A program made the position numbers and the translations under genes. Shown here piece after piece: positions 6,185-27,103 of a DNA stretch of 47,415 bases. Position 1 is the first letter of the stretch; every line of letters starts with the position of its first letter. The stretch is from Nitrospiraceae bacterium. Lineage in GTDB: Bacteria > Nitrospirota > Thermodesulfovibrionia > UBA6902. The DNA is taken from the NCBI GenBank assembly GCA_020356065.1, contig CP070632.1, forward strand, positions 1,350,842-1,398,256, written 5' to 3'. The notes beneath the pieces are model-generated. The model saw only the letters and a program-made list of their open reading frames with translations. It ran no database searches and was not told the origin of the DNA.

Positions 6185-7357
6185 TTAATACTCCGACTTT
6201 ACCGTACCTAATTCCTCTCTCACGGAAATCGCAACTTTATAAAGGATGGTAAGGGTCAGAAACCCGATTGCCCAGACACCGAGCGTGATGACCGTCTCGA
6301 TCAGTGTAGGCCAGTACTCGGTTACTGTACCAAAGTGGTTCGGTACAAACCCTCCGATTACAAGGCCGAATCCCTTGTCTATCCATAATGAGATAAATAC
6401 GAGGACACAGGCTTTGATAAGGTTTGACTCCTTATTTCTGATTTTCGGGGGTATAAGCATTATCAGGGATATAACGGCAAAAATGACTGATATCCACATT
6501 AGGGGTACCAGTTTGCCATGACCCTCAATTCCGACAAAGAGATATTCAAAGGAATGCATATGGCCAGGAATATTACTGTAAAACGCTGTAAAAACTTCCA
6601 GGAGAATAAAGAATACATTGGCACACATTGCATAGGTGACAATTTTACCAACAGCCTGAATCGGTTCCCTTCCCGGATCAAACTTTGTGTACTTCCTCAA
6701 GATCAGCGCAAGGATGATCAGCAGAGCCGGTCCTCCGGCAAATGCAGATGCAAGGAACCTGGCTGCCATGATTGCCGTAAGCCAGAAATGTCTTCCCGGA
6801 ATACCGGCATAAAGAAACGCCGTAACCGTATGAATGCTGACCGCCCAGGGTATGGACAGATAGATGAGAGGCTTCACCCATGACGGCGGCGGGGCCTGCT
6901 TCTTTTCAGCATGCAATGTTGTCCATCCGATCACAATATTCAGAAAGAGATATCCGTTAAGAACTGTAGCGTCCCAGAACAGAATTGAGTTCGGAGTTGG
7001 ATGCAGAATGACATTCAGGATCCTCATGGGCTGTCCCATATCAACAAAGATAAACAGCATGCACATCGTTACCGATGCCACGGCAAGGAATTCACCAAGA
7101 ATAACTATCTTGCCGAACTTCTTATAGTCATGAAGATAATAGGGAATGACCAGCATTACAGCTGATGCTGCGACACCGACAAGAAAGGTAAACTGTGAGA
7201 TATAAAAACCCCATGAAACGTCCCTGCTCATGCCGGTGACTCCCAGGCCGTTATTAAACTGATAAAGATATGCCAGCGTCCCTGCCCCGGCTATTGAAGC
7301 CAGAACGATGATCAGTGTCCAGTATGTTTTACCGCCGTGCAGCGCCTTATCCAGCAT
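6185..7357 (-). CDS. dsrP: DsrP, NrfD-like membrane subunit of the DsrMKJOP complex
   Basis: DsrP is the NrfD/PsrC-type quinone-interacting membrane subunit of DsrMKJOP. It passes electrons from the menaquinone pool to periplasmic DsrO/DsrJ or the reverse. The 390-residue product is almost wholly hydrophobic with about ten membrane helices; the first follows KTYWTLIIVLASIAGAG, and the family pattern of polar loops (PGREPIQ) is visible. The start is taken as ATG 7357: an AGGAGG lies eight bases upstream of it, whereas the in-frame GTG at 7366 would sit directly on that ribosome site. The gene overlaps dsrO by 11 bases, so translation is coupled. It is the last gene of the operon. Confidence 0.93.
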   Translation of the reverse strand: MLDKALHGGKTYWTLIIVLASIAGAGTLAYLYQFNNGLGVTGMSRDVSWGFYISQFTFLVGVAASAVMLVIPYYLHDYKKFGKIVILGEFLAVASVTMCMLFIFVDMGQPMRILNVILHPTPNSILFWDATVLNGYLFLNIVIGWTTLHAEKKQAPPPSWVKPLIYLSIPWAVSIHTVTAFLYAGIPGRHFWLTAIMAARFLASAFAGGPALLIILALILRKYTKFDPGREPIQAVGKIVTYAMCANVFFILLEVFTAFYSNIPGHMHSFEYLFVGIEGHGKLVPLMWISVIFAVISLIMLIPPKIRNKESNLIKACVLVFISLWIDKGFGLVIGGFVPNHFGTVTEYWPTLIETVITLGVWAIGFLTLTILYKVAISVREELGTVKSEY

Positions 7358-8144
7358 AGTCTTCACCTCCTATTATGTAAAATACACTTGGCATCGTTCC
7401 CAATGTAGGTTTACGACGCAGTGTGAAGTGTGTACTGAGAATGTTTCTTATCTCTGAATGTGAATCAGCAAGGTTGCCAAAAATCATGGCACCGTTAGAT
7501 ACCTCAACACAGGCAGGCTGCTGCCCTCTTGCCAGTCTTTCCGGACAGAACGTACACTTCTCCACAACCCCGATGGTACGTGTCGGGAAATCCGGATTCC
7601 GCTTTGGTATGTACGGCCTTGGATCAACCCAGTTAAAGCTCCTTGAGCCATAGGGACATCCTGCCATACAGAACCGGCAGCCTATGCAGCGGTGAGGGTC
7701 CTGCACAATCATTCCGTTTTTGGCCCTAAAAGTGGCCTTGGTAGGACAGACCCTTACACATGGCGGCTTATCGCAGTGGTTGCAGAGCAGAGGAAACGTC
7801 TTATTCCTTAGTGCCTCCGGATGATAATCATTTATCTGCTCAGGAAACGTATGGTTGTACGTATCTGTCCATATCCATTTCACCTCGTTCTTCACGTTAT
7901 TCTTCTCAGGAATAAGCGTTGGAACATTATGCACGGTATGACAGGCATCGGCAATTCTTGCATAATCCGCGTCTGTCAGTTTTCTCACATCTATTGCCAT
8001 TCCCAGTCGTTCGCCGGAACTGGGAAGTGAATGTCCGCCTGAAGCCTCTGCAGGACTCATCAATATAAAATCCCTTGCACTCAGGCTCAGACCAAGGCCG
8101 GTCAGACCGGCGATTTTAAGAAATTTTCTTCTGTTTATGCTCAT
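7347..8144 (-). CDS. dsrO: DsrO, periplasmic ferredoxin subunit of DsrMKJOP
   Basis: DsrO is a periplasmic iron-sulfur protein of the DMSO-reductase ferredoxin-subunit type. The N-terminus is a Tat signal (NRRKFLK followed by a hydrophobic stretch to about residue 34), so it is exported folded. Cysteine clusters for several [4Fe-4S] centres are visible: CNHCDKPPCVRVCPTKA, CIGCRFCMAGCPYG and CTFCPERL with a later lone Cys in PACVEV. It would link DsrJ with DsrP. The 265-residue length is normal. It overlaps dsrJ by four bases (ATGA type) and dsrP by 11, which implies tight co-translation. Confidence 0.94.
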   Translation of the reverse strand: MSINRRKFLKIAGLTGLGLSLSARDFILMSPAEASGGHSLPSSGERLGMAIDVRKLTDADYARIADACHTVHNVPTLIPEKNNVKNEVKWIWTDTYNHTFPEQINDYHPEALRNKTFPLLCNHCDKPPCVRVCPTKATFRAKNGMIVQDPHRCIGCRFCMAGCPYGSRSFNWVDPRPYIPKRNPDFPTRTIGVVEKCTFCPERLARGQQPACVEVSNGAMIFGNLADSHSEIRNILSTHFTLRRKPTLGTMPSVFYIIGGEDYAG

Positions 8145-8539
8145 AACCGGCCCTCCCCTCTGTCAAAGTGACAATCCCAGCAGTAAGGATCAATCCCTGC
8201 ATATTTATGACATTCCGTACAGAACTGCTCCTTGTTTGAGTGACAGTGCATACAACCGTTCTGCAGGCTCTTTTCCAGCTCAGTACCGCCAACACTGATC
8301 TTTTCTCTTTTTCCTTCCCTGACAACTTCATCTCTCCACTCATCAAGCACCTTCATATGCTCTTTCTTCATGTACTCGCCGGATCTCACACACTCTTTCG
8401 TTGCAAGGGCATAAATTTCCGGTGTGTCAAGACTCGGCATTGCTTTTTTGGCAGACCCGCCCAGATTTGAATAAAAAGGGAAGGTCACGATAGCAAGAAA
8501 GATGATCAGTCCGAATATGATCTTTCCTCCGTTATACAT
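8141..8539 (-). CDS. dsrJ: DsrJ, triheme cytochrome c of DsrMKJOP
   Basis: DsrJ is a membrane-anchored periplasmic triheme cytochrome c. One N-terminal helix (residues ~5-24) acts as anchor. Three CXXCH heme sites are present: Cys96-His100, Cys107-His111 and Cys120-His124. A single upstream cysteine, Cys50 in TKECVRSGEYM, matches the conserved cysteine that in characterised DsrJ is the unusual His/Cys heme ligand. The protein is 132 residues, a normal length. The ATG overlaps the dsrK stop by one base and the end overlaps dsrO, so the three are translated together. Confidence 0.94.
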   Translation of the reverse strand: MYNGGKIIFGLIIFLAIVTFPFYSNLGGSAKKAMPSLDTPEIYALATKECVRSGEYMKKEHMKVLDEWRDEVVREGKREKISVGGTELEKSLQNGCMHCHSNKEQFCTECHKYAGIDPYCWDCHFDRGEGRL

Positions 8540-10182
8540 TATTCTCCTCCCTCCTCATTATTGTCATCATCATCGTCATCATCCTCCACACCTGGAAGGT
8601 CTTCCAGCCTCAGGTCCTGGGTCCTTTTGATCTCACCCTTCATTACAAGGGCGTTTGCAAGCAGTTCATGGGTTCCGCATACATCGACGCCGGGCGCCCA
8701 GTAGTCCATCAAAGGGGGAAGAACGGCTCTGTCGATAGCGCAGATATTTGCCAGCATATTTACCCCGTATTTTTCCTGTACCCGCTTGACCGCATGCCCT
8801 CTCGGCATTCCGCCTCTCATTCTCAGTTCAATATTTTCTCCGGCGTTCAAACCGGACCCGCTTCCACAGCAAAATGTCTTTTCCCTTGTGGCGTCACTGG
8901 ACATCTCAAAGAAGTTGTTACAAACATTTTTAATAATGAAGCGTGGTTCATCAAAAATACCCATTCCCCGTGCCGTGTTGCAGGAGTCATGAAAAGTAAC
9001 GTTCAGATGGTCATTGCGGCTCGGGTCAAACTTTAGCTTGTTATGCTTAATCAGATCAGCGGTAAACTCACAAATGTGTACCATCTTTGTGCTCTTAGCA
9101 TTTTCAAACTTTGTCCCCGTAATGGGTGATACCGGCTCTTCCATGAAGTCTGCAGGACCGTTCCATGTATCCATATACTGATTGAGAACCCTCCACATAT
9201 GCCCGCACTCACCGCCGAGTATCCACTTTACACCAAGCCTTTTTGCTTCTGCATATATTTTGTAATTAAGCCTCTTTGCCATTTCCATTGAGGTAAAGAA
9301 ACCGAAATTACCACCTTCAGATGCATAGGTGCTCCAGGTGTAGTCAAGGCCCAGCTCATGCAACAGCATGAGGTATCCCATTGCCGTATACGTACCGGGA
9401 TCACCGAAAAGGTCTCCTGACGGCGTTACAAAGAGAATCTCGGCCCCTTTTCTGTTGAAACTTGGCTCTATGGTGATACCTGTTATTTCCTCAATGTCGT
9501 CTAACAGATACTCTATATTGCTTGTTATGGCATGGGGTTCAAGACCGAGGTGGTTACCTTTCTTGTAACAGTTTGCAACCGGCCCCCCTATCCAGTCAGT
9601 CTGTAAACCCAGAAGATTAAGGATCTCCCTACCGATCATGGTTATTTCTGCCTGATCAATGCCGTAAGGACAGAACACTGAACAGCGGCGGCACTCTGTG
9701 CACTGGTAGAAGTAATACCACCATTCCTTGATTACATCTTCTGTAAGTTCTCTTGCACCGGCTCTTTTACCCAGCAGTTTTCCGCCGATGGTAAAGTATT
9801 TCCTGTAAATGGACCTTATCAGTTCAGCCCTTAAAACAGGCATATTTTTTGGATCACCAGATCCTATATAAAAATGACACTTATCTGCACACGCACCACA
9901 TCTTACACATATGTCCATGAAGACCCTGAAAGAGCGGTATTTACTGAGCCTCTCTTCCATGGCAGTAAGCACTATCTCCTTCCAGTTTTCAGGAAGCTTC
10001 CAGTCCTCATCTGCCGGACTCCACTCTCTCGGATTGGGAAATCCTACCTCTTGAAGGTAGACAGGTCGGGATCCGTAACAGTACATCCCTTCCCTGAATT
10101 CAACAGGAGTTTCAGTCCAATCCTTTTTCGGAGCTTCATAATCTACGTTCACTAATTCTTCGGGTGTTGTTTCTTTTGCCAT
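8539..10182 (-). CDS. dsrK: DsrK, HdrD-like catalytic subunit of DsrMKJOP
   Basis: DsrK is the cytoplasmic HdrD-like subunit that acts on the DsrC trisulfide, taking electrons from DsrM. Two [4Fe-4S] ferredoxin clusters are visible: Cys92, 95, 98 and 102 (CVRCGACADKC) and Cys161, 164, 167 and 171 (CTECRRCSVFC). A CCG domain lies at about residues 390-450, with HDSCN and FCCGSGSG holding ligands of the non-cubane catalytic cluster. The 547 residues are normal. The extreme C-terminus carries a run of seven aspartates followed by NNEEGGE, an unusual acidic tail. Four bases separate it from dsrM. Confidence 0.95.
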   Translation of the reverse strand: MAKETTPEELVNVDYEAPKKDWTETPVEFREGMYCYGSRPVYLQEVGFPNPREWSPADEDWKLPENWKEIVLTAMEERLSKYRSFRVFMDICVRCGACADKCHFYIGSGDPKNMPVLRAELIRSIYRKYFTIGGKLLGKRAGARELTEDVIKEWWYYFYQCTECRRCSVFCPYGIDQAEITMIGREILNLLGLQTDWIGGPVANCYKKGNHLGLEPHAITSNIEYLLDDIEEITGITIEPSFNRKGAEILFVTPSGDLFGDPGTYTAMGYLMLLHELGLDYTWSTYASEGGNFGFFTSMEMAKRLNYKIYAEAKRLGVKWILGGECGHMWRVLNQYMDTWNGPADFMEEPVSPITGTKFENAKSTKMVHICEFTADLIKHNKLKFDPSRNDHLNVTFHDSCNTARGMGIFDEPRFIIKNVCNNFFEMSSDATREKTFCCGSGSGLNAGENIELRMRGGMPRGHAVKRVQEKYGVNMLANICAIDRAVLPPLMDYWAPGVDVCGTHELLANALVMKGEIKRTQDLRLEDLPGVEDDDDDDDNNEEGGE

Positions 10183-10186
10183 TTCC

Positions 10187-11176
10187 TTACTCCTTTTCTA
10201 CAGGTATTCCTGCCTCTTTCATTTTCTCTCTGAACTCGTCCTCATATGCTGCATATGAATGGACTTTTACGTCATAGTTCCATGGGTTAACATGTCTTAC
10301 CTCGCGGTTGTTATTTGCCAGGTTCCTGGTCGGACTGAGGAAGACGCCTCCCATATGCATGAGTTTGCTAAAAGGGAAGTACACCAGCAGAGCACTTATA
10401 AGAAAGAGGTGAATGTAAAATATCGCCCCGATACCGGCAGGCGTTCTTGGACGTAAGCTGACAAGCCCCAATGTAAAGGCCTTTACGCTGACGATATCAA
10501 CCTTTACAAAATAGCGCATAATGATTCCGGAGAGTGCGATCCCGATGATAAGCAGAAGCGGAAAGTAATCAGCAGGCAGAGATATATGTCTTACCTGTGA
10601 ATTATTTATTCTGCGGAATAAAAGATATCCCCCGGCCGCAACTAATAATACTCCTGTCAGCAGCAGGTGCGGCACTCCCACCTGGACAAAACCGTCAAGG
10701 GCATCGATCATGTTGATAAAGGACGGAACAGGTTCAATAAAGAACCTCAGGTGTCTGATCAACACGATAAAAAATGAAATATGAAAGAGAAGACCTGCGA
10801 GCCACAGAATTTTGTCTGATCCATACGTGACCCTTCCATCATTCATCTCTGTTCTGAGATTTCTGAAGAGTGACCTGAAAAGAAACACTTCCAGCACCAT
10901 TCTGATAATGACCTGGCCTGTTGTCTGAGGATTGTCATACTTACTGTGTTTTATCCAGGGAAGGGATTGCTGCTGTCCACATGTAGTGGGAATGCGAAAT
11001 GGAACTGGTGACCGGCCCCATTTAGCAACTTTGAGCACAACGCCGACAAGAAAAACCAGAACCGCCAGGTAGGGGATGACGACACCGAAAAAATACTGCA
11101 TACCTGGTATCCAGACACCGGCAAAGGCAATCACGGTGAGTGCCACAACAACGGAGAAGGAAAAAAATATTCCCAT
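10187..11176 (-). CDS. dsrM: DsrM, NarI-like cytochrome b subunit of DsrMKJOP
   Basis: DsrM is the membrane cytochrome b that binds quinol and passes electrons to DsrK. The 329-residue product starts with two membrane helices (residues ~5-45) and continues with a NarI-like core of about four helices, including LLFHISFFIVLIRHLRFF and IFYIHLFLISALLVYF, with histidines placed for two b hemes. The C-terminal soluble tail contains NPWNYDVKVHSYAAYEDEF, typical for the family. A G-rich ribosome site precedes the ATG. It opens the tight dsrMKJOP run; an RsbRD-like gene lies 85 bases upstream. Confidence 0.94.
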   Translation of the reverse strand: MGIFFSFSVVVALTVIAFAGVWIPGMQYFFGVVIPYLAVLVFLVGVVLKVAKWGRSPVPFRIPTTCGQQQSLPWIKHSKYDNPQTTGQVIIRMVLEVFLFRSLFRNLRTEMNDGRVTYGSDKILWLAGLLFHISFFIVLIRHLRFFIEPVPSFINMIDALDGFVQVGVPHLLLTGVLLVAAGGYLLFRRINNSQVRHISLPADYFPLLLIIGIALSGIIMRYFVKVDIVSVKAFTLGLVSLRPRTPAGIGAIFYIHLFLISALLVYFPFSKLMHMGGVFLSPTRNLANNNREVRHVNPWNYDVKVHSYAAYEDEFREKMKEAGIPVEKE

Positions 11177-11261
11177 ATCTACCCCCTTAATTTTTACTGT
11201 GTAATACTCGTAATTACGTTATTTAAATTTTATGTATTGAGGAGCCTTATGAGCCGGAATA

Positions 11262-11780
11262 CTACTCCTCTGTCCGGACTTCCTTGTAAAACCCGGTTTT
11301 ATGCAGTGCCCTGTATGTCCAGTTCCTCATTTCATTGGCTTTGATTTCGTAAATTTTCTCGCGGCACTTCATATAAATCTCAAAAGCAGAATTTGCAAGA
11401 GAATCTATTCTTGTTTCCAGGCCCAGTAACTCCTTGAACATCTTCGGATCACATATTTCTTTATCCAGCTCTTTTCGTATCACTTCCTTCAGGGAGAATA
11501 TAAAACTGACGGCCTCAGAAGGAGAAAAGTCCTGTATCGCCCTGACCCTGATGACATTATCAAGATATATATTGAGTTTGTCTTCATCATCTTCATGTAC
11601 CAGTCCGTTAAAAATTCCCTCAATGCCTTCATAAATTGCCTGGGTTACAGGATTGCGGGTCTGAGAGTTCTGGCTTTTTAAAAAGCTTGAGGTTTCTTTC
11701 GGGTAAGTTTCTAAAATGAGAGCAAACCATTTTTTTAACACATCAGGTTTTTTCTCTGCTAACAGACTGTATATCTTCAT
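11262..11780 (-). CDS. RsbRD N-terminal-like regulatory protein linked to dsrMKJOP
   Basis: A 172-residue all-helical soluble protein that resembles the RsbRD N-terminal domain (a four-helix sensor fold first described in stressosome RsbR proteins). Visible features are an opening helix with KPDVLKKWFALILETYP, a central VRAIQDFSPSEAVSFIFSLKEVIRKEL and a closing helix of YMKCREKIYEI. There is no STAS domain, so it is not a full stressosome component. Genes of this type commonly sit just upstream of dsrM in sulfate reducers, which suggests a role in sensing or assembling the Dsr membrane complex. That role is inference. It lies 94 bases after dsrC and 85 before dsrM. Confidence 0.75.
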   Translation of the reverse strand: MKIYSLLAEKKPDVLKKWFALILETYPKETSSFLKSQNSQTRNPVTQAIYEGIEGIFNGLVHEDDEDKLNIYLDNVIRVRAIQDFSPSEAVSFIFSLKEVIRKELDKEICDPKMFKELLGLETRIDSLANSAFEIYMKCREKIYEIKANEMRNWTYRALHKTGFYKEVRTEE

Positions 11781-11874
11781 AAGTGTAAAAACAGGACAGG
11801 GAAACCGCTACATTTACAATCAAAGGGCTAAGGCCTGCAAAGGCCTCAACCCTCAATATTGATGCTATTGATTC

Positions 11875-12210
11875 TTATACGCAGCCAGTCGGTTTTGGAA
11901 GACCGGCATATCTGCATGCCTGCTTGGCAGGACCGGCAGGATACAGTTCGTAGAGATACTTGGTGTTACCTTTTTCTTTACCGTATTTTTTCTTCAGTTC
12001 TTTTGTGAGGATTTTGATCATGGGTGCAATCTGGTATTTCTCAAAATAATCTCTGAGAAACTTGATGACCTCCCAGTGTGCTTCACCGAGTTCAAGGCCG
12101 TCTTCTTTTGCCATTGCGCCGGCAAGGCCCTCATTCCACTGCTGCCAGTCTATAAGGTATCCGTCCTCATCAACCTCATAGGATGTTCCTTCAAAGTCTA
12201 ATGTAGCCAT
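11875..12210 (-). CDS. dsrC: DsrC, sulfur-carrier protein of sulfite reduction
   Basis: DsrC is the small cytoplasmic partner of DsrAB that leaves the reaction as a trisulfide between its two C-terminal cysteines and is then reduced by DsrMKJOP. Both cysteines are present: Cys99 and Cys110 in CRYAGLPKPTGCV, 11 residues apart with the last one penultimate, as in true DsrC rather than TusE-like relatives. The body shows the expected DGYL-W-W start and GxxLxxxHWEVI helix. The 111-residue length is typical. A GGAG ribosome site precedes the ATG, and a separate promoter is proposed at 12319-12348. Confidence 0.97.
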   Translation of the reverse strand: MATLDFEGTSYEVDEDGYLIDWQQWNEGLAGAMAKEDGLELGEAHWEVIKFLRDYFEKYQIAPMIKILTKELKKKYGKEKGNTKYLYELYPAGPAKQACRYAGLPKPTGCV

Positions 12211-12550
12211 GCATAATCTCCTTTCCTAATTAAATCGTTGATTATTTGTGAAGGTATTCTTTTATTCTGGATGAGTTCCCAGATAATAAGAGAAACAGCT
12301 AATTACTCCAAGTCTGGAACTATAAAAGAAAACCATCTGTTTGGTCAAATAAAAAAAACTTATATGTCATTTATTTCTCTTAATAGATTGGTGTATATGT
12401 CATAATCGTTTGAAAAATAAGAGAATTAGCAATATCCAGGCCAAAATGCTACATACATGCCTGATGACTCAATGACGTAATAAACTCGATGTGACGAATC
12501 ACACAGGTGAGTCATTTGACATTTCAAATTTGAAATCTCGAATATAATTT
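12211..12550. other. control region upstream of dsrC
   Basis: This 340-base non-coding gap separates dsrC from the dsrABDN block. Reading on the minus strand it contains the proposed dsrC promoter and an A/T tract shared with the dsrA upstream region. A perfect 16-base palindrome (12521-12536, ATTTCAAATTTGAAAT) lies close to the end of the upstream zinc-ribbon gene and could be an operator or the base of an mRNA hairpin. No further gene is seen. Confidence 0.5.
12319..12348 (-). promoter_or_regulatory. candidate sigma-70 promoter of dsrC
   Basis: On the minus strand TTGACC (12343-12348) is followed after 18 bases by TATAGT (12319-12324). It is preceded by an eight-T tract. The 15 bases from that tract through the -35 start (TTTTTTTTATTTGAC) are identical in the upstream region of dsrA. 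This supports a genuine, shared promoter type, about 110 bases ahead of the dsrC start. Confidence 0.5.
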
Positions 12551-12898
12551 TTACTGCCCCTTCTGCTCATTACTCGTTAATCTGGCAAAAATGATCTTGC
12601 AGTGTATTTCTCCTGCCTTTTTTGCTCCAATCGTATTGCTCTGATAATTATAATCAACCTCAACTGTTTCATATTCCTCAGGGTCAAGATTCATGGCCTT
12701 ATCATAATCCCCTCTGCTCAGGAACGTCAGTGCATTCAAGTAGGTTTCGCCCATATTTCTCCCTGACCTGTCCAGAAGATAAACAGCTCTGCAGGGGCAT
12801 ATGCCACCGGTAAATTCCATGTCCTTGAAATTAATATCCATCGGACTTCTCAGCATTGTATTGCAATAAGGACATTGTAAAGGTTTAACTCTGGCCAT
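12551..12898 (-). CDS. unrecognised small zinc-ribbon protein in the dsr locus
   Basis: This encodes a 115-residue protein that I cannot assign to a named family. The N-terminus holds a split zinc-ribbon: Cys9-x-x-Cys12 (CPYC) and Cys34-x-Cys36 (CPC), presumably a metal site. The remainder has an aromatic/acidic stretch (DPEEYETVEVDYNY) and ends on a basic, polar tail. The start at 12898 is preferred over the in-frame ATG at 12931 because the zinc ribbon begins right after MARVKPLQ and the extra 11 residues are a hydrophobic, AT-rich run. It lies 60 bases downstream of dsrN in the same direction and before the dsrC promoter, so it is probably the last gene of the dsrABDN transcript. A role in sulfite reductase or siroheme maturation is only a guess from position. 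Confidence 0.7.
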   Translation of the reverse strand: MARVKPLQCPYCNTMLRSPMDINFKDMEFTGGICPCRAVYLLDRSGRNMGETYLNALTFLSRGDYDKAMNLDPEEYETVEVDYNYQSNTIGAKKAGEIHCKIIFARLTSNEQKGQ

Positions 12899-12958
12899 AA
12901 TATAAATTAAACATAAATACTTAATAATCAAAGATGAGGAAATGATTAAAAAAATCCC

Positions 12959-14422
12959 TTAATTTTGATTTTTCATTTTATCTTTTTTATTCTTATATTC
13001 CTTCGCAGCTTTCAGCATGCCATCAGCCCACTCAGGAGCACCAGCAGCATGAAGATGCGTGTAGGTAGCGAAGGTATTTTTATAACACATTCCATCTTTT
13101 TTGTCTCTTATGCCCCTGCCGCGCTTTACAGTGAATGCCATGGTCACGTCTCGTTCTCCGACATCCATAACCCTGGAGTAATGAAACTCATGTCCTTTTA
13201 GCACTGTTCTTAAAGGAAAAAACGGATTGGCCCGGCTTACTTCGACTAGGGAGTAGCCATGGGCCTGTGGTTTTTTGTCCAGTCTGAATGTGACCGGTAG
13301 TATCCCTGCCATCGGGTATGTTTTTTCTCCCATTCTTATATTACTTCCGAGATACATCAAGCCCCCGCACTCCGCATACACAGGCAGTCCCTGTTCAATT
13401 AAACGGTGAAGGGACTCTTTAAACTTCGTATTCTCTGCAAGTGCAATGGCATGCGTCTCGGGAAACCCGCCTCCGATATAAAGTGCATCAATATCGGGAA
13501 GACGATCATCCTTTAAGGGGCTCACCTCAACCAGCTCGGCCCCTCGCTTTTCGAGTTCTTCAAAATTTTCCTGATAATAAAACTGGAAGGCAGAGTCCCG
13601 GATGATACCGATGCGGAGGCTGAAGTTGTGGGTTTGGAGTTTATTTTTCTGATTCAACTCATGACTCTTCACTCCCGACTCTTCACTCAATTTTAATTTA
13701 TCAACACTGTTTGCCACTTTAATAATGCCATCATAATCCAGATATTTTTCTCCAATCTCCCTGACTGCTGCCATTGACTCATCAATGCCCCCCCGCTCCT
13801 GATGGGGGACCAGCCCCATATGTCTCTCCGGGAACGGGTCTTTTTGTAACCGTGGTATGGCACCCAGCACAGGAATGCCGCATATACTGAATATGGCCTT
13901 TCTGATCACATCCTCCTGCCTCACTGTAGCAACCCGGTTTAATACTACACCTCCGATTATAATGTCCGGGTCCAGCTTCTGACAGCCCAGTACCAGAGCT
14001 GCTATGGTGCTCGTTGTTTTTGTGCAGTCCACCGCCAAGACGACAGGAGCCATGACAAGCTTTGCAAGCTCGGCTGAACTGTATGAACCCTTTTCATCAA
14101 TCCCGTCATATAGTCCTCTGTTGCCCTCAATTATGGATATACTCCCCCCTTTAATAAAGGAGGGAAGGGGGGGAGTTGAATGTATCGCAAATGATTTCAG
14201 GACCTGATCCGGGGACATCATGAAAAGGTCCAGATTGTAACAGGGTACTTCCGCCGCCCGGGCAAGCCAGCCCGCATCAATATAGTCCGGACCTTTTTTA
14301 AAAACAGAGACCTGCAGTCCTTTGTTTTTTAGGAGGGTAATAAGAGATAGAGATACGACGGTTTTGCCACTACCGCCCCTCAGGCCGGCAACAACCAGTC
14401 TTGGGATTTTTCTATTTGACAT
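12959..14422 (-). CDS. dsrN: DsrN, siroheme amidase (CbiA/CobB-type glutamine amidotransferase)
   Basis: The product resembles cobyrinate a,c-diamide synthase (CbiA/CobB). Located in a dsr cluster it is best read as DsrN, which amidates siroheme for DsrAB with glutamine and ATP. The N-terminal ATPase domain has GLRGGSGKTVVS (residues 13-24), KKGPDYID and IEGNRGLYDG; the C-terminal class I glutamine amidotransferase domain has YAECGGLMYLG with the nucleophilic Cys, and a late HEFHYS. No other cobalamin genes are near. Two stretches look foreign: STPPLPSFIKGGS at about residues 82-94, and a linker between the domains (residues ~245-267). Both coincide with repeat DNA at 14141-14176 and 13622-13690. 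The length of 487 is slightly above usual, as those insertions predict. Confidence 0.9.
   Translation of the reverse strand: MSNRKIPRLVVAGLRGGSGKTVVSLSLITLLKNKGLQVSVFKKGPDYIDAGWLARAAEVPCYNLDLFMMSPDQVLKSFAIHSTPPLPSFIKGGSISIIEGNRGLYDGIDEKGSYSSAELAKLVMAPVVLAVDCTKTTSTIAALVLGCQKLDPDIIIGGVVLNRVATVRQEDVIRKAIFSICGIPVLGAIPRLQKDPFPERHMGLVPHQERGGIDESMAAVREIGEKYLDYDGIIKVANSVDKLKLSEESGVKSHELNQKNKLQTHNFSLRIGIIRDSAFQFYYQENFEELEKRGAELVEVSPLKDDRLPDIDALYIGGGFPETHAIALAENTKFKESLHRLIEQGLPVYAECGGLMYLGSNIRMGEKTYPMAGILPVTFRLDKKPQAHGYSLVEVSRANPFFPLRTVLKGHEFHYSRVMDVGERDVTMAFTVKRGRGIRDKKDGMCYKNTFATYTHLHAAGAPEWADGMLKAAKEYKNKKDKMKNQN
13622..13690. repeat. simple repeat inserted in the dsrN interdomain linker
   Basis: On the minus strand the sequence is a degenerate series of units like AGTGAAGAGT and GAGTTGAA. 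It encodes the low-complexity linker SEESGVKSHELNQ and following residues between the two DsrN domains. The same kind of short GAGTTAGAAGT-type sequence is otherwise intergenic in this window (24897-24930 and 25375-25470). Confidence 0.55.
14141..14176. repeat. GC-rich palindrome (family B) inside dsrN
   Basis: Arms ACTCCCCCC (14141-14149) and GGGGGGAGT (14168-14176) are perfectly complementary, with an inner near-palindrome CCTTTAATAAAGG. It is the same family as the intergenic palindromes at 5994-6023, 28646-28754 and 29409-29450. Here it is read in frame as TPPLPSFIKGG within DsrN. Confidence 0.7.
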
Positions 14423-14452
14423 TAAACAGAGGAGACTTCTGAAGAATATGAA

Positions 14453-14519
14453 TCAGGGACCAGGTATCACATGCCGGAACTGTCACCTTAATTCCCGACA
14501 TCTGGAACCTGGTCCCTGA
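14453..14519. repeat. inverted repeat between dsrD and dsrN
   Basis: TCAGGGACCAGGT (14453-14465) and its exact complement (14507-14519) bracket 41 bases. Pairing continues imperfectly inward for about ten more bases. In the dsr transcript this would form a strong hairpin of roughly 67 bases between dsrD and dsrN. It has no T tract, so it is more likely a processing, stability or attenuation element, or a mobile palindrome, than a terminator. Confidence 0.75.
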
Positions 14520-14527
14520 AAGCTGTT

Positions 14528-14773
14528 TTAGAGCAATCCTTTTTCTTTAAGGTACTCTTCGCTGGGAATCTCAACAGAGCTGGCACCTCCGCCATATGAA
14601 TACATGACTCTCCCAACATTAATCATTTCTCTAAGAGCTGTTTTCACTGTGGCTTTGTCTTCACCAGTTTCAGCCATAATAGCCTTGAAAATATCTTTCT
14701 CTTTCAGCTTTTTTTTGCCCTTCATTTTTTCCAGGTAGGCAAATATCTTGTCCTGTAATTCTGACTGTTCCAT
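14528..14773 (-). CDS. dsrD: DsrD, winged-helix activator of DsrAB
   Basis: DsrD is a small winged-helix protein that has been shown to be an allosteric activator of DsrAB; it is characteristic of sulfate and sulfite reducers rather than sulfur oxidisers. The 81-residue product matches the family: an opening helix EQSELQDKIFAYLEK, a recognition-type helix EDKATVKTALREMINVGRV, and a C-terminal MYSYGGGASSVEIP wing. It lies 91 bases after dsrB and 105 before dsrN, both gaps containing strong hairpins. Confidence 0.94.
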   Translation of the reverse strand: MEQSELQDKIFAYLEKMKGKKKLKEKDIFKAIMAETGEDKATVKTALREMINVGRVMYSYGGGASSVEIPSEEYLKEKGLL

Positions 14774-14812
14774 ATTTTCACCTCTCTAATAGAAGTTTAT
14801 TCAAAAGCTGGC

Positions 14813-14846
14813 AAGCACTCCCTCGAATAATCGGGCGGGACTGCTT
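14813..14846. repeat. hairpin between dsrB and dsrD
   Basis: AAGCACTCCC (14813-14822) pairs with GGGACTGCTT (14837-14846), nine of ten positions, with additional TCG/CGA-type pairing inside. It sits in the 91-base gap just after the dsrB stop on the minus strand and lacks a T tract. It is therefore a candidate mRNA-stability or partial-attenuation element that sets the DsrB:DsrD ratio. Confidence 0.5.
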
Positions 14847-14864
14847 ACCAGTCTCTTTTACTCA

Positions 14865-15935
14865 TCAATACTTAAATGCTGCTGATGTCCTCAAGGTGTC
14901 CCTCATGAATGTGAAGTCATCGATATGCTGGAACGTAAACTCAATACCGGTCTGTTTAAAGAAGTCTTCCCATCCGATTCTCTCGATCCATTCACCAACC
15001 CTCTCATGCTTCTTTGCATTTTTTGCATATGTCTCAAGAATGTTCCTGATAGCAGCTACAACCTTGGGCCACCTTGGGGGTTCATTATAGAAGAACGGGA
15101 TAGCCAGCTTGGAGAACTTTGGATCAGTTCTCAGGCTGCCGATCTTCCCGCCCACAACAATGGCAACACCATCCTGCTCAGGATTGTGAATTTCGATCGG
15201 AGGACATACGGTAAAGCAGTTACCGCAGTACATGCATTTTTCTTCATTAATGGTGACTGATTTCTCTTTCGGGTTTGGTCTGATGGCTGATGTCGGGCAT
15301 GATGCGATTGTGGTTGGTATCTCACATGCCTTCTTGACAGCGTCATCATTGATAACAGGGACTTTCCTGTGCACGGCAACAACTGCGATGTCAGAGACGT
15401 GCACAGCGCCGCACATGTTAACGCAGCATGCCACGGCAAGTCTTACCTTGTTGGGCAGAGCCTTTGTGGTGAAGTACTCGTGTAAATCATCCATGATTGC
15501 TTTTACAAGACCTGAAGCATCGGTACATGCGCTGTGGCAGTGTACCCAGCCCTGTGTGTGAATAACATTACTTACACGGGGTCCGATTCCGCCGATCATA
15601 TGCCCCTTTTCTTTAAGAGCAGCTACCAGAGGTTCAAGCTTGCTCTCATCAGAAACAAGGAACTCAACGTTGTTTCTTGTGGTAAAACGGAGATATCCAT
15701 CGCAATATTCCTCAGCAAAGTTACAGAGTTCACGTATAGAATCTGTAGCAAGAAGCCTTGGAGAGGCGACCCTCACTGTGAAAAGCTTGTCACCGCTTTC
15801 TGCATAATGGACCATAGTTCCCGGAGTCAGGATTTCATGATGGGACCATTTGCCGTAATTTTTCTCTATTACCGGTGGTAAGAACTGTCTATAATCCGGT
15901 GGTCCAATGTCTGTCTGTCTTTCTGGTAATGCCAT
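14865..15935 (-). CDS. dsrB: DsrB, dissimilatory sulfite reductase beta subunit
   Basis: DsrB is the catalytic-heme-bearing subunit of the alpha2-beta2 siroheme sulfite reductase. The 356-residue product shows the siroheme/[4Fe-4S] cysteines Cys133 and Cys137 (HCHSACTDASG), Cys170/171 and Cys175 (CCVNMCG). An inserted ferredoxin domain has Cys213 and then Cys234, 237, 240 and 244 (CMYCGNCFTVCPP). The gene follows dsrA after 40 bases with its own AAGGAGG ribosome site. Confidence 0.97.
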   Translation of the reverse strand: MALPERQTDIGPPDYRQFLPPVIEKNYGKWSHHEILTPGTMVHYAESGDKLFTVRVASPRLLATDSIRELCNFAEEYCDGYLRFTTRNNVEFLVSDESKLEPLVAALKEKGHMIGGIGPRVSNVIHTQGWVHCHSACTDASGLVKAIMDDLHEYFTTKALPNKVRLAVACCVNMCGAVHVSDIAVVAVHRKVPVINDDAVKKACEIPTTIASCPTSAIRPNPKEKSVTINEEKCMYCGNCFTVCPPIEIHNPEQDGVAIVVGGKIGSLRTDPKFSKLAIPFFYNEPPRWPKVVAAIRNILETYAKNAKKHERVGEWIERIGWEDFFKQTGIEFTFQHIDDFTFMRDTLRTSAAFKY

Positions 15936-15975
15936 GTAAGCTACCTCCTTAAATTATATTTTCTTAGTTAAGTAA

Positions 15976-17166
15976 TTATGCAAAATCGCTCTCTGACCAG
16001 AAGAAGAACGGGTCTTTTCTCGGCTCGTATACCTGCTGCGGCTGAGGATCTACTCCTATTGCCTCAAGGAAAGGCCTCATGCCTTTTACTTCGATAAGCT
16101 CACCGATTCTTTCTCTGGGCTTGGCATTGTCGTCCCACCACTCGATCATGTTCTCGAGAAGCTCAATATATTCTTCATAGGGAGATTCCATTTTCATAAA
16201 AGGAACAATGACCCATGAGAGTAATGATCCCACAACGATAGGTGCCTTTGAACCGACGAGGATGCTGGCGCCCCTCTCCTTGCCCGGCTTTAACGCCTTT
16301 GTCATTCTTGTGATGCAGTGCATGCACCTGTTGCACTGAGAGTTGTCGATCGTTATTGATGACCCGTCAAAGGACATACATTCGGTGGGGCACCAGTCAA
16401 TGACATCGGACTGGATGTCCATTCCGCTGTCAGCATATTTCTTGACTTCTGCCTGGTTTATCTGGATATCACCCTTCCATGTTCCGATTACAGAAATGTC
16501 AGCACGTGCAATAGCTGCTACACAGTCACATGCACATCCTGAAATTTTATTCTTGATCTTATAGGGATAGGCCGGTCTGTGCAGCTCATCCTGAAAATGC
16601 TGGGTAACCGTGTTACATATATCCATGGTGTCGATCATTGCCCACTCGCAGCGGGCCTGACCTACACAGCAGCTCGGTGTTCTCATGGCTGATCCAGATC
16701 CGCCGAGGTCCCATCCGCGTGATGAGTACTCTGCAAAGAGAGTTTCCAGATTCTCAGTGGTTGTTCCTAAAAGAACAAGGTCACCAGTTGAACCGTGCAT
16801 GTTTGTCAGTCCGCTTCCATACTTGTCCCAGATATCACATATTTCCTTAAGGGCCTTTGATGTATAGAAGAAACCGCTTGGCTGGTTGATTCTGTACGTG
16901 TGGAAATGAGCAACTCCGGGGTATTCATCGGGGAGTGAAGAGTATCTTCCGATAACCCCTGATCCATATCCTAGAACTCCCACGATACCGCCATGCTTCC
17001 AGTATCCCCTCTTGCTGTTGTAGGATTTTTCCAGCTGTCCCAGCTCATCATCTGCCATTTCAGGCATCGCACTGCTGTTTCTCGCTTTCTTGATTTCCGT
17101 AATAAAACTTGGAAACGGGCCTTTTTCAAGCTCATCAAGCATTGGTGTTTTGTGCTTACCGCTCAT
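15976..17166 (-). CDS. dsrA: DsrA, dissimilatory sulfite reductase alpha subunit
   Basis: DsrA pairs with DsrB to reduce sulfite by six electrons in the cytoplasm, delivering sulfur to DsrC. Counting from the chosen start (396 residues), the siroheme-cluster ligands are Cys167 and Cys173 (CVGQARC) and Cys211 and Cys215 (CACDC). The ferredoxin insert holds Cys259, Cys263, Cys278, Cys281 and Cys284 (CNRCMHC). ATG 17166 is chosen because AGGAGG precedes it by five to six bases; the in-frame ATG at 17202 would read through that ribosome site and add a non-family MINKGERKKEGY leader. It is the first gene of the dsrABDN block. Confidence 0.97.
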   Translation of the reverse strand: MSGKHKTPMLDELEKGPFPSFITEIKKARNSSAMPEMADDELGQLEKSYNSKRGYWKHGGIVGVLGYGSGVIGRYSSLPDEYPGVAHFHTYRINQPSGFFYTSKALKEICDIWDKYGSGLTNMHGSTGDLVLLGTTTENLETLFAEYSSRGWDLGGSGSAMRTPSCCVGQARCEWAMIDTMDICNTVTQHFQDELHRPAYPYKIKNKISGCACDCVAAIARADISVIGTWKGDIQINQAEVKKYADSGMDIQSDVIDWCPTECMSFDGSSITIDNSQCNRCMHCITRMTKALKPGKERGASILVGSKAPIVVGSLLSWVIVPFMKMESPYEEYIELLENMIEWWDDNAKPRERIGELIEVKGMRPFLEAIGVDPQPQQVYEPRKDPFFFWSESDFA

Positions 17167-17471
17167 GTATCCCTCCTTTTTTCTTTCTCCCTTATTGATC
17201 ACTAAGGGAACTGTTCATCAAATTTTAAACATCAAAAAAATTCTTGTTGCTGTAAGATTCTTTTGAATTTCAGGATTGCTCAGAAAAAATTGGTCTTAGA
17301 TAGTAGTATATCTCTCGTTTTCACGTCAAATAAAAAAAATTAATGTATCGATCATGAAAGCTTATTCACTGCAGAAATTATAATTATTAATTAAAGGGTT
17401 AGCATTGACTATTTTCCCCGAGTTTATTTATTTTGATAATGTTCATAACCTCTGGACTCGAATAAAATAAT
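17167..17471. other. control region upstream of dsrA
   Basis: A 305-base gap between pyrE and dsrA (both on the minus strand). It contains the proposed dsrA promoter (17300-17329) with the A/T tract shared with dsrC. A short CCCTTA/TAAGGG hairpin (17189-17194 with 17203-17208) in the leader lies close to the ribosome site. The rest is AT-rich with no gene. Confidence 0.5.
17300..17329 (-). promoter_or_regulatory. candidate sigma-70 promoter of dsrA
   Basis: On the minus strand TTGACG (17324-17329) is followed after 18 bases by TACTAT (17300-17305). Directly upstream is an eight-T tract in a context (ACAT, TAA, T8, ATTTGAC) nearly identical to that in front of dsrC. The shared 15-base core is TTTTTTTTATTTGAC. 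The leader would be about 130 bases. Confidence 0.5.
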
Positions 17472-22102: not shown

Positions 22103-22197
22103 TGACAAAATTACAAATTACAAATTACAAGTTACAAATATTGCTTATTGTTTTTTCCCTCACCTATTCCCTATTCCCTATTCCCTATAACCCGTTA
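22102..22197 (+). repeat. simple repeats forming the lolA signal-peptide codons
   Basis: ATGACAAAATTACAAATTACAA-type units (22102-22138) are followed by tandem CTATTCC units (about 22162-22188). The first type shares the 11 bases AATGACAAAAT with the repeat over the queH stop codon (31187-31197). Both are normally intergenic sequence types. Confidence 0.6.
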
Positions 22198-24126: not shown

Positions 24127-24381
24127 ATGGAGATCCTCGCAGGAAGAGCAAGGAAGTATTATCGAAAAATAAGTGTGGCCAGCATCGAAGTATGTGAATC
24201 CCTCAAACTAGGGGACGTTATTCATATCAAAGGACATGTTACGGATTTTGATCAGGAGATACGTTCGATTGAAATATGTAATGTATCGGTCAGGGAAGTC
24301 GGTAAGGGCCAGACAGCAGGCATTAAAATGACTGATTATGTCAGAAAGAATGATCTTATTTACAGAGTAGATAACACATGA
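24127..24381 (+). CDS. translation-elongation-factor-like protein (EF-Tu domain 2 type)
   Basis: The product is an 84-residue stand-alone beta-barrel resembling domain 2 of EF-Tu. It contains KISVASIEVCESLKLGDVIHIKG, TDFDQEIRSIEI and a final RKNDLIYRV, the pattern of small translation factor-like proteins found in many anaerobes. Such proteins are often genetically tied to U32 peptidases that hydroxylate or modify RNA, but no such gene is visible here. There is no GTPase domain, so it cannot work as an elongation factor itself. Its stop overlaps the start of the next gene by four bases (ATGA), so the two are co-translated. Confidence 0.75.
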   Translation: MEILAGRARKYYRKISVASIEVCESLKLGDVIHIKGHVTDFDQEIRSIEICNVSVREVGKGQTAGIKMTDYVRKNDLIYRVDNT

Positions 24382-24896
24382 GCGAATTAATCAAGCCAAC
24401 CCCCGAATGGTACGCTGTACACGTCAAGTCCAGACATGAGGCAAAAGTGAACGAAAGGCTGATCCTGAAAGGTGTGGAATCATTTCTCCCGACGGTGGAG
24501 AGACTCCGGAAATGGAAGGACAGAAAAAAGAAAGTCCAGTTCCCCTTGTTCCCCGGATATTTATTTGTCCACACAACAAGTGAGGCCGACAACCTGTTAA
24601 GCGTCTTAAAGGTCGCCGGCGTTGTAAGAATGATATGCACTATTCCGGGACGCCCGGATCCTATCCCTGATGAGCAGATTATCTCTCTGCAAAAACTTAT
24701 AGAAAACAAGGAAGAGCTCGATCCCTATCCTTATTTAAATGAAGGTCAGCAGGTCAGGATAACCAGGGGAGCACTTGCCGGTGTTGAAGGCATTCTGGTC
24801 AAAAAGCTTGATAAACACCTGCTGGTACTCTCCGTTGACGTTCTTCAGCAGGGAGTTGCCCTGAAGATAAGCGCCTCAGAGGTGGAGAAAGTGTAA
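24378..24896 (+). CDS. UpxY/NusG-family transcription antiterminator
   Basis: A 172-residue NusG paralogue. The NGN domain (residues ~11-105) begins EWYAVHVKSRHEAKVNERL and contains the FPLFPGYLFV motif typical of RfaH/UpxY-type specialised factors. The KOW domain follows with GQQVRITRGALAGVEGIL near residues 122-139. UpxY-type proteins let RNA polymerase read through long polysaccharide operons, but no such operon follows; the target must lie elsewhere or may have been lost. It overlaps the EF-Tu-like gene by four bases. Confidence 0.85.
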   Translation: MSELIKPTPEWYAVHVKSRHEAKVNERLILKGVESFLPTVERLRKWKDRKKKVQFPLFPGYLFVHTTSEADNLLSVLKVAGVVRMICTIPGRPDPIPDEQIISLQKLIENKEELDPYPYLNEGQQVRITRGALAGVEGILVKKLDKHLLVLSVDVLQQGVALKISASEVEKV

Positions 24897-24937: not shown

Positions 24938-25298
24938 ATGTACTGGAAAGAACTTGAATGTAAGAAAAGGGCTCGTGAACTGGTTCAACGTATTTGTAAG
25001 GTCATTGTTACATACCCTGATACAGTAAAATATGCTTTGTCAAATCAATTAAAGCGTTCCGCTTATTCCGTTTCCGCTAATATAGTTGAAGGTCATGCAC
25101 GAAAAACATCAAAGGAATTTATACTGTTCCTTTATCAGGCACGAGGGTCCCTGAAGCAATTACGCTATTTTTTTGCTTTCAATAGATCTGAACTACTTAT
25201 CACTTGGGCCTTACAGCGAATTGGAGGATAATTCAATAATTATCAGTAAAATGATTAACAGCCTGATCAGCTTTGTAAAGAGAAAAATAAACTCCTGA
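24938..25298 (+). pseudogene. four-helix-bundle protein (S23/IVP-like), frameshifted
   Basis: The first 75 or so residues match the four-helix-bundle family found in 23S rRNA intervening sequences and elsewhere: ARELVQRICKV, SNQLKRSAYSVSANIVEGHARKTSKEFILFLYQARGSLKQLRY. The frame then ends early at 25229. The expected last helix (IDLNYLSLGPYSELED ... SFVKRKINS) is present in another frame, to a TGA at 25296-25298. The switch occurs at a run of seven T (25168-25174), so an insertion or deletion in the homopolymer has broken the gene, or slippage rescues it. The single-frame product would be 97 residues with a wrong C-terminus. Confidence 0.72.
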
Positions 25299-25810
25299 CG
25301 CATATCTCCAGACGACAGAAAGTGCGTCCTTTTTACATCATCACCATTGTACGAACACCACATTTGATAAAGTTAGAAGTTTAAAGTCAGAAGTTGGCAA
25401 AAATTTTTCTTAACAACTTTAACATCATGTTTTAATTGTCTTTTCTCACTTCTCACTTCTCACTTCTTCCCTGTTTTTTTAAACTGGCACACCTTTTGCT
25501 GTCTACAATTTGTCGTCCATTGTTCTTTGTAAACAGCTGAACGGAGAATAGTCTCCAATTAATGGAGATATAAAAAATGTGTGTTATTAATAAGATGTAA
25601 GATTTTTTAACAAATAATTATGAAGATGTCATAAATGATGCATTAAGAAGTATCAGATGATTGTGACAGATAAAAATTGATGAAAACCTTAATTGAAAAG
25701 GGGGTGGTGAATTATAGAAATGAATGTCCGGCATTCCGGTTTATCCGGAAGACTGGATTTGCAGTATAGAGATCATAAACTATGAACAAATTTAACAAGG
25801 AGGTTTTTGA
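25299..25810. other. long leader and control region of the porin gene
   Basis: This 512-base gap has three parts. Bases 25370-25470 hold AAAGTTAGAAGT-type repeats and a tandem TCACTTC array. A sigma-54 promoter follows at 25485-25500. Bases 25512-25800 would be an unusually long untranslated leader, with a GGAGAATAGTCTCC hairpin near 25543 and a TTCCGG/CCGGAA hairpin at 25734-25750. The porin ribosome site AAGGAGG closes it. Confidence 0.5.
25485..25500 (+). promoter_or_regulatory. sigma-54 (RpoN) promoter upstream of the porin gene
   Basis: TGGCAC, five bases, TTGCT is an essentially perfect -24/-12 element, with GG at 25486-25487 and GC at 25498-25499 in the required ten-base spacing. It reads toward the porin, whose ATG lies about 310 bases downstream. 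No other gene intervenes. A sigma-54 promoter needs an enhancer-binding activator; the repeats upstream are possible but unproven sites. Confidence 0.75.
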
Positions 25811-27049
25811 ATGAAACGATATTTAGTAATTCTTTTAAGCTTGGTGTTCGTGCTCGGCACGGTCAGCTTTGCTGTTGCTGATGACGGCGGTATGGACAGC
25901 GTTAGGGCAATGCAGCCCGGAGCAAAGGTGATGCTCGGCGGTGATATGCGTGTAAGAGGAACCTGGAAAAAGAACAATGATTTCGATAAAGATACCATTA
26001 ATCCCAAAAATGATAATGCGTACTATGACCAGAGGTTCAGACTGAAAATCAAGGGCGAAGCTGGCAATGGAGTCAGTGCAAATGTAAGGTTATATATGGC
26101 TAACAGCGTAAAATGGGATGGTGCTGCTAACTCCTGCACCGGCTGCATAAAGATTGACTATGCATATGTCACAGTTCCCGTATCAACTTTCACAGTGAAT
26201 GCCGGTCTCATGAAAACGTACTACGGAAATGCCTTTATGAATAATGAAAATATTCCTGGGCAAATGGGGGATCAGTTTGACGAGAGGCGCGAAACAATAG
26301 AAGTGATCGGCACATTTGAAACTGTTACCATTAAAGCATTTACTTCTAAAATTGCTGACACGTTCGACTCCGTTACAGGTGATGAAAACCTTAAAGATTT
26401 CAATGACTACGGTGTAATGCTCGTCGCTGATCTCGGTGAGATCGAAGCTGGTGGAATTGTTATTTATCATCATGACAACCGTGAAACTATTCCCGGAACC
26501 GGCAATGACGACGGAACTGACATCTCCATTTATGCAAAAGGAGCCATGCAGAACATTAAAGTTGGTGCTGAGGTTGTATTCCTGACCGGTGATATTAACA
26601 AGGACAGTGCAGACAATACACCTCTTGGCTTTATGGCCTATGCAGAAACCACGGTAGGAGCAATCGGCGTAAGAGCTGATGCTGCATTTTCAATGAACGG
26701 TTACCAGGCAAGTTACTCCTATGAGCCGACACTGTTAATTGGTACAACTCAGCAGACAGCCTTAACAGATTTCACTTCGTTTGATGATGAAAATGCATTC
26801 TTAATCGCTGCATCTGCAAATACAGACGTCATGGAAAACGTAAACGCACTGGCCAGAGTTGCATACTGGAACGCCAAGCCTACGGGTGGCGGTGACAGTT
26901 TAGGTCTTTTGGAGCTTGATGGCGAAATTCTTGTTCAGATTGCAAAGAACGCACGGTACTTCATTGAAGCAGCGTGGGGAAATCCGAATGATGAGTTAGG
27001 TGAAGATTCTGCATTTGTGCTTGCAAACAGAGTAGAATTATTCTTCTAA
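25811..27049 (+). CDS. outer-membrane porin
   Basis: A 412-residue beta-barrel outer-membrane protein. The signal peptide (KRYLVILLSLVFVLGTVSFAVA) has a cleavage site at AVA-DD. The mature part is rich in alternating strands and acidic loops, with few cysteines (one CTGC pair in a loop), and ends in VELFF, with the terminal Phe that BamA recognises. It resembles porins seen in Nitrospirota and deltaproteobacteria, with general diffusion or anion/carbon-source uptake as possible roles. Strong ribosome site (AAGGAGG), a sigma-54 promoter and a perfect terminator suggest a highly expressed, regulated single-gene unit. Confidence 0.85.
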   Translation: MKRYLVILLSLVFVLGTVSFAVADDGGMDSVRAMQPGAKVMLGGDMRVRGTWKKNNDFDKDTINPKNDNAYYDQRFRLKIKGEAGNGVSANVRLYMANSVKWDGAANSCTGCIKIDYAYVTVPVSTFTVNAGLMKTYYGNAFMNNENIPGQMGDQFDERRETIEVIGTFETVTIKAFTSKIADTFDSVTGDENLKDFNDYGVMLVADLGEIEAGGIVIYHHDNRETIPGTGNDDGTDISIYAKGAMQNIKVGAEVVFLTGDINKDSADNTPLGFMAYAETTVGAIGVRADAAFSMNGYQASYSYEPTLLIGTTQQTALTDFTSFDDENAFLIAASANTDVMENVNALARVAYWNAKPTGGGDSLGLLELDGEILVQIAKNARYFIEAAWGNPNDELGEDSAFVLANRVELFF

Positions 27050-27070
27050 GAAGGTTATACAGTTAGTTCA

Positions 27071-27103
27071 AAAGGCGTTCCGGATGTCCGGAACGCCTTT
27101 TTT
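27071..27103 (+). terminator. rho-independent terminator of the porin gene
   Basis: A perfect 14-base stem (27071-27084 with 27087-27100, AAAGGCGTTCCGGA) closes on TG and is followed by six T in a row. It lies 22 bases after the porin stop and is nearly symmetrical. Confidence 0.93.

Follow-up and report, generated by a model that had tools for sequence, protein, structure and literature searches.

The window analysed here is the whole 47,415-nt stretch of DNA from a Nitrospiraceae bacterium (GCA_020356065.1, contig CP070632.1, positions 1,350,842 to 1,398,256 of the forward strand), and all locus coordinates are positions within it. The host genome is a single contig of 3.17 Mb. Genes resembling those for dissimilatory sulfite reductase and its membrane complex were recognised by eye at 6185 to 17202, and are consistent with a sulfur-metabolising host. 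The locus described below comprises a porin gene, the DNA upstream of it and a neighbouring gene for a NusG paralog, with the following features:

24378 to 24896, forward strand: gene for a UpxY-family NusG paralog, a candidate partner (NCBIfam antiterm_UpxY, above cut-off)
25326 to 25362, forward strand: conserved upstream motif, a probable activator or enhancer site (genome uniqueness, class survey, phased distances)
25363 to 25483, no strand assigned: spacer of 121 bp from motif to promoter, with degenerate 7-bp and 14-bp tandem repeats (TRF and repeat search)
25484 to 25500, forward strand: sigma-54 promoter, -24 TGGCAC and -12 TTGCT (consensus match; conserved in 20 of 20 family loci)
25511 to 25810, forward strand: predicted 5' leader of about 300 nt (start placed 12 nt past the GC box; folding)
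25520 to 25529, forward strand: TTGTTCTTTG box close to the 5' end of the mRNA (loci aligned at the -24 box)
25551 to 25569, forward strand: genus-level hairpin GTCTCC...GGAGAT at the leader 5' end (common to relatives L015 and L016; predicted fold)
25694 to 25772, forward strand: conserved leader element, consisting of the AAAGGGGGTGGT tract, a hairpin at 25726 to 25758 and GGATTT..GTATA (covariance model R1, pair counts, duplex energies)
25797 to 25803, forward strand: porin Shine-Dalgarno sequence AAGGAGG (sequence)
25811 to 27049, forward strand: porin gene, 412 aa, with signal peptide and predicted 18-strand beta-barrel (Pfam, AlphaFold, Foldseek)
27070 to 27101, forward strand: strong intrinsic terminator (terminator scan)

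A first-pass annotation of this DNA had called the gene at 25811 a porin, and the protein comparisons agree. A short stretch of the protein scores above the Pfam cut-off for Porin_O_P, and a signal peptide was read by eye from the sequence. An AlphaFold model made with an input of 13 sequences, from the window and its relatives, has 18 strands at moderate confidence (pLDDT 66, pTM 0.63). Its best PDB match in Foldseek is the Campylobacter jejuni MOMP (E = 6e-12), an 18-stranded trimeric porin (PMC5090048), and OprD-type porins are also among the matches. As modelled, the gene product has both hallmarks of a general porin, a barrel of 16 to 18 strands and a signal peptide. The strong terminator that follows the gene makes the porin unit seemingly monocistronic. 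Between the UpxY and porin genes lies a gene (24938 to 25231) for a four-helix-bundle protein of the 23S rRNA-intervening-sequence type, which is also found in the relatives L072 and L076.

Of 61 related genomes, 20 were found to encode a homologous porin. The relatives that a protein search returned are metagenome assemblies from the Thermodesulfovibrionia and Nitrospirota. Upstream of the relatives' porins, the DNA shares one layout, in which a 37-bp motif is followed by a -24/-12 box, then by a leader that contains a G-tract and a hairpin, and last by a Shine-Dalgarno sequence.

The sigma-54 promoter and the upstream motif

The first-pass annotation proposed that the porin is preceded by a full -24/-12 consensus, and this proved correct. 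The sequence TGGCACACCTTTTGCT at 25485 to 25500 matches TGGCAC-N5-TTGCW in full, with exactly 10 bases between the GG (25486 to 25487) and the GC (25498 to 25499), and it is the only match in the window, against a mean of 0.01 in 100 dinucleotide shuffles. Genome-wide, the pattern occurs 13 times and its reversed form once; 12 of the 13 matches lie outside any ORF of at least 100 aa, and the genes downstream of these sites include, as named from their translated starts, what we take to be dnaK and a motA-like gene. Both the sigma factor and its activators are encoded in the genome, with one rpoN (PF04552, E = 3.9e-61) and 26 enhancer-binding proteins represented by strong PF00158 matches. The -24/-12 site lies upstream in all 20 family loci that bear the leader element, and in every one of them the -12 box ends TTGCT; the -24 GG is replaced by AG or CG in several relatives.

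Roughly half of the relatives have a near-consensus sigma-70 promoter (TTGACA-N17-TATAAA-like) downstream of the sigma-54 box and ahead of the leader element, as would be expected if the sigma-54 site were a relic and most porin transcription came from a sigma-70 start within the leader. In the window, however, a promoter scan found no sigma-70-like site between 25500 and 25811, the best score in that stretch (9.5 of 12.5) being no better than in shuffles (p = 0.37), and the -24/-12 box, the upstream motif and the spacing between them are all still conserved, which leaves a relic very improbable. Because the window lacks a sigma-70 site, sigma-54 is seemingly the sole recognisable promoter in its genus, and the relatives may use two promoters, one for each sigma factor. 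L070, L072, L078, L079, L082, and L083 combine a -24 box whose GG has become AG with a near-consensus sigma-70 promoter further downstream, which suggests weakened sigma-54 dependence in these relatives.

The upstream motif at 25326 to 25362 reads GTCCTTTTTACATCA-N5-ATTGTACGAACACCACA and is an imperfect inverted repeat, whose centre we read from the alignment as TTNNTRCM-N10-KGYANNAA. Searches with the pattern RTCCTTTTTRCMTCA-N5-ATKGYATRAANACCACA, allowing up to three mismatches, returned a single match in the motif's own genome and none in the reversed control. The motif was present in 22 of 200 genomes of the class, with a maximum of one per genome, and in 20 of 20 family leader loci (score of at least 26/31). 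From the end of the motif to the -24 box the distance is 97 to 100 bp in most loci, 109 to 110 bp in two and 117 to 121 bp in others, with outliers at 127 and 133 bp; for L023 and L030, where the -24 box is degenerate, the distances were set by hand to 99 and 100 bp. Successive distance classes differ by about one helical turn, and a phasing simulation restricted to the distinct distance values gave a p of about 0.008, a figure that ignores the shared ancestry of genomes that are not independent. The spacer contains degenerate tandem repeats at 25368 to 25395 and 25443 to 25467, and random gain or loss of a 7-bp repeat would also yield distances of about 106 and 113 bp, neither of which was seen. 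Degenerate 7-bp or 14-bp tandem repeats also occur at 22108 to 22139 and 22163 to 22188, and in relatives the corresponding spacer, ahead of the -24 box, carries other heptamers.

The 37-bp motif often starts at or just past the stop codon that ends the preceding gene and could, on that account, be a conserved end signal of that gene rather than an activator site. We consider this improbable: the motif is kept in L017, L028, and L085, where UpxY was not found upstream, it is tied to the sigma-54 box by phased distances, and it is absent behind UpxY genes that have no porin. It looks like a dedicated activator site, and we judge that it probably is one. Sigma-54 activators bound at distal sites contact the polymerase by DNA looping (PMC7057263). 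With sigma-54 systems of the NtrC type (PMC7057263), the locus shares the -24/-12 box, the 10-bp spacing, a distal motif, a genome that encodes rpoN and activators, and a helically phased spacing compatible with looping; unlike those systems, it has an upstream motif that is single in the genome. A search for the GAFTGA motif detected no activator gene in the window and none near the porin in 13 relatives.

Conservation of the site in 20 of 20 loci, the presence of rpoN and enhancer-binding proteins, and the phased upstream motif together support sigma-54 control of the porin strongly, about as well as sequence alone permits, and we regard such control as highly probable. Sigma-54-driven porins are an already known kind, since BCAL3473 of Burkholderia cenocepacia, a porin with sigma-54-like elements and an extended spacer, is controlled in addition after transcription, by the small RNA NcS25 (PMC10117139). 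The window porin resembles BCAL3473 in its sigma-54 promoter elements and differs from it in that its box, in place of the extended spacer, is perfect and conserved (PMC10117139). No sigma-54 porin from the Nitrospirota was described in the literature we searched.

The conserved leader RNA

With a predicted start about 12 bases past the GC box, at 25511, and the porin ATG at 25811, the leader would be about 300 bases long. A leader of this length containing hairpins had been anticipated in the first-pass annotation, and the predicted fold has an energy of -65.2 kcal/mol (z = -2.4 against shuffles). About 10 to 20 nt past the predicted start lies the TTGTTCTTTG box, which is recognisable in many relatives. 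Further downstream, the conserved leader element was described by a covariance model, R1, of 76 positions and 11 pairs. The model has one significant match in the genome of the window (E = 4e-9; the next has E = 1.1). Among 37 family genomes, 20 contain the element, each in a single copy that is always at the porin locus, with E values from 1e-12 to 2e-7. Outside the family, no match was found among 396 genomes of the phylum under strict filters; weaker versions of the element precede the porins of other relatives. The element carries a mean of 1.06 bits of information per column, against 0.51 in the leader just upstream.

A function for the element is likely. The earlier proposal of a sigma-54 porin with a second control level in its leader can accordingly be divided: its promoter half is strongly supported, and the second level is plausible, in view of the conserved 76-position element that 20 genomes keep in single copy before the porin. 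Nutrient-dependent control of the porin and small-RNA control of the leader, both also suggested at that stage, are guesses.

The AAAGGGGGTGGT G-tract lies about 110 to 130 nt ahead of the porin start codon and is complementary to the 3' end of 16S rRNA. Calculated with the standard anti-Shine-Dalgarno sequence, its duplex energies range from -17.3 to -23.1 kcal/mol, against -11.2 to -14.0 kcal/mol for the porin Shine-Dalgarno sequence, and the G-tract is the stronger of the two in 20 of 20 loci; the pairing often includes G-U wobbles and is not a perfect anti-Shine-Dalgarno match. An upstream ORF in the leader was considered and rejected, a start codon being in reach in only 6 of 20 loci and in differing frames, and the 20 loci have no small ORF conserved after the G-tract. 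In the adjoining hairpin, 89.5% of pair cells are intact, compared with 51 to 64% when the pairing is slid by one column, figures that lean towards structure because the alignment was fitted to it. Changes on both sides were seen at 3 of the 11 pairs, a modest covariation. RNAalifold, applied to the leader alignment, returned a weak consensus of 6 pairs at -2.6 kcal/mol, and the hairpin therefore rests on single-sequence folds and the structure that we named.

Porin leaders are among the classical targets of base-pairing small RNAs, NcS25 acts on the sigma-54-like porin of B. cenocepacia (PMC10117139), and the leader folds better than its shuffles, all of which would accord with a small-RNA target or a ligand-binding riboswitch. 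Both are nonetheless unlikely, given that the leader matched no family in Rfam 15 at gathering or relaxed thresholds, that no small-RNA gene was identified, and that the conserved hairpin is small for a riboswitch (11 pairs), with little covariation. The element resembles a 16S-complementary site joined to a hairpin more than it does a small-RNA target.

The nearest precedent for a 16S-complementary leader site is the STAB-SD of Bacillus thuringiensis cry3A, a Shine-Dalgarno-like leader sequence that binds the 30S subunit and protects the mRNA without a translation start (PMC4113751). The G-tract is likewise Shine-Dalgarno-like, can pair with 16S rRNA, has no conserved start codon after it and, as there, stands about 110 to 130 nt ahead of the porin start codon; unlike STAB-SD, it precedes a conserved hairpin, lies away from the predicted 5' end and belongs to the porin mRNA of a diderm (PMC4113751). 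At about 190 nt from that end, it would, in an unprocessed mRNA, be unlike a classical 5' stabiliser. A second precedent, for control of stability, is the 5' UTR of Escherichia coli ompA, the leader of a major outer-membrane protein mRNA, which sets mRNA stability (PMC2777011); the porin leader may have a comparable role. The ompA mRNA is in addition subject to MicA/Hfq control. Of the roles considered for the element, we find ribosome standby or stabilisation of the mRNA the likeliest, and put it forward tentatively. The element appears to be previously undescribed and is a candidate new leader RNA.

The UpxY neighbour and a proposed mechanism

The genome encodes only two proteins with a NusG domain, UpxY and a longer one elsewhere. 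UpxY adjoins 17 of the 20 leader loci, where, across genera, it is far better conserved (70 to 91% identical to the window's protein) than the porins (20 to 58%). In the window, it does not stand beside an exopolysaccharide cluster; in L109, L110, L112, and L115, UpxY homologs precede genes of the sugar-nucleotide type. The ops element of RfaH is G-rich, and the leader G-tract recalls it. The leader element might then be a loading site at which UpxY, as a protein of the NusG/RfaH/LoaP type, joins RNA polymerase and rides with it through the porin gene or couples ribosomes to it.

The distribution of UpxY argues against such a loading site. UpxY homologs (73 to 77% identical) occur in L092, L093, L094, L103, L104, and L108 with no adjoining leader element, motif or porin, and in L093 UpxY directly precedes yebC, so that the adjacency of UpxY and porin may be shared synteny. 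Conversely, L078, L085, and L087 have the leader element and no UpxY in the stretch examined. We had also considered UpxY and the cassette as an obligate pair, which is rejected on the same pattern, each occurring without the other beside it. A terminator scan found no terminator-like site within the leader through which UpxY could promote read-through. The locus thus resembles UpxY, RfaH and LoaP systems in its directly upstream UpxY gene and G-rich conserved leader element, and differs from them in having neither a polysaccharide operon nor a terminator to pass. A loading site for UpxY is on balance unlikely, a little more so than a small-RNA target or riboswitch; some functional link between UpxY and porin is possible, and our literature search found no report of one.

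Our preferred reading, to which we assign a probability of roughly 0.8 on sequence evidence, is that sigma-54 RNA polymerase and a distal activator would drive a monocistronic porin transcript whose conserved leader would tune the duration or efficiency of its translation. An enhancer-binding protein of the NtrC type would bind the single 37-bp motif at 25326 to 25362 and, by looping of the DNA, would meet sigma-54 RNA polymerase at 25484 to 25500 on the same face of the helix, in keeping with the phased spacing observed. As in established sigma-54 biology, ATP hydrolysis would open the promoter, and the transcript would start near 25511. In the leader, the G-tract may base-pair with the 3' end of 16S rRNA, and the element may thereby retain a 30S subunit; this subunit would stabilise the porin mRNA or feed ribosomes to the real Shine-Dalgarno site. 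More speculative, and in our estimate doubtful as a whole, is a single-target circuit in which a dedicated activator serves one porin through the only enhancer site of each genome, and in which the G-tract and hairpin of the leader set porin output, possibly read by UpxY.

Gene regulation has been little studied in the uncultured Thermodesulfovibrionia, and the locus offers a compact case of sigma-54 control of an outer-membrane protein outside the Pseudomonadota. Its natural spacer-length variants appear to report the helical phasing of enhancer against promoter, and its candidate leader RNA could bind 16S rRNA by base pairing and yet not initiate translation.
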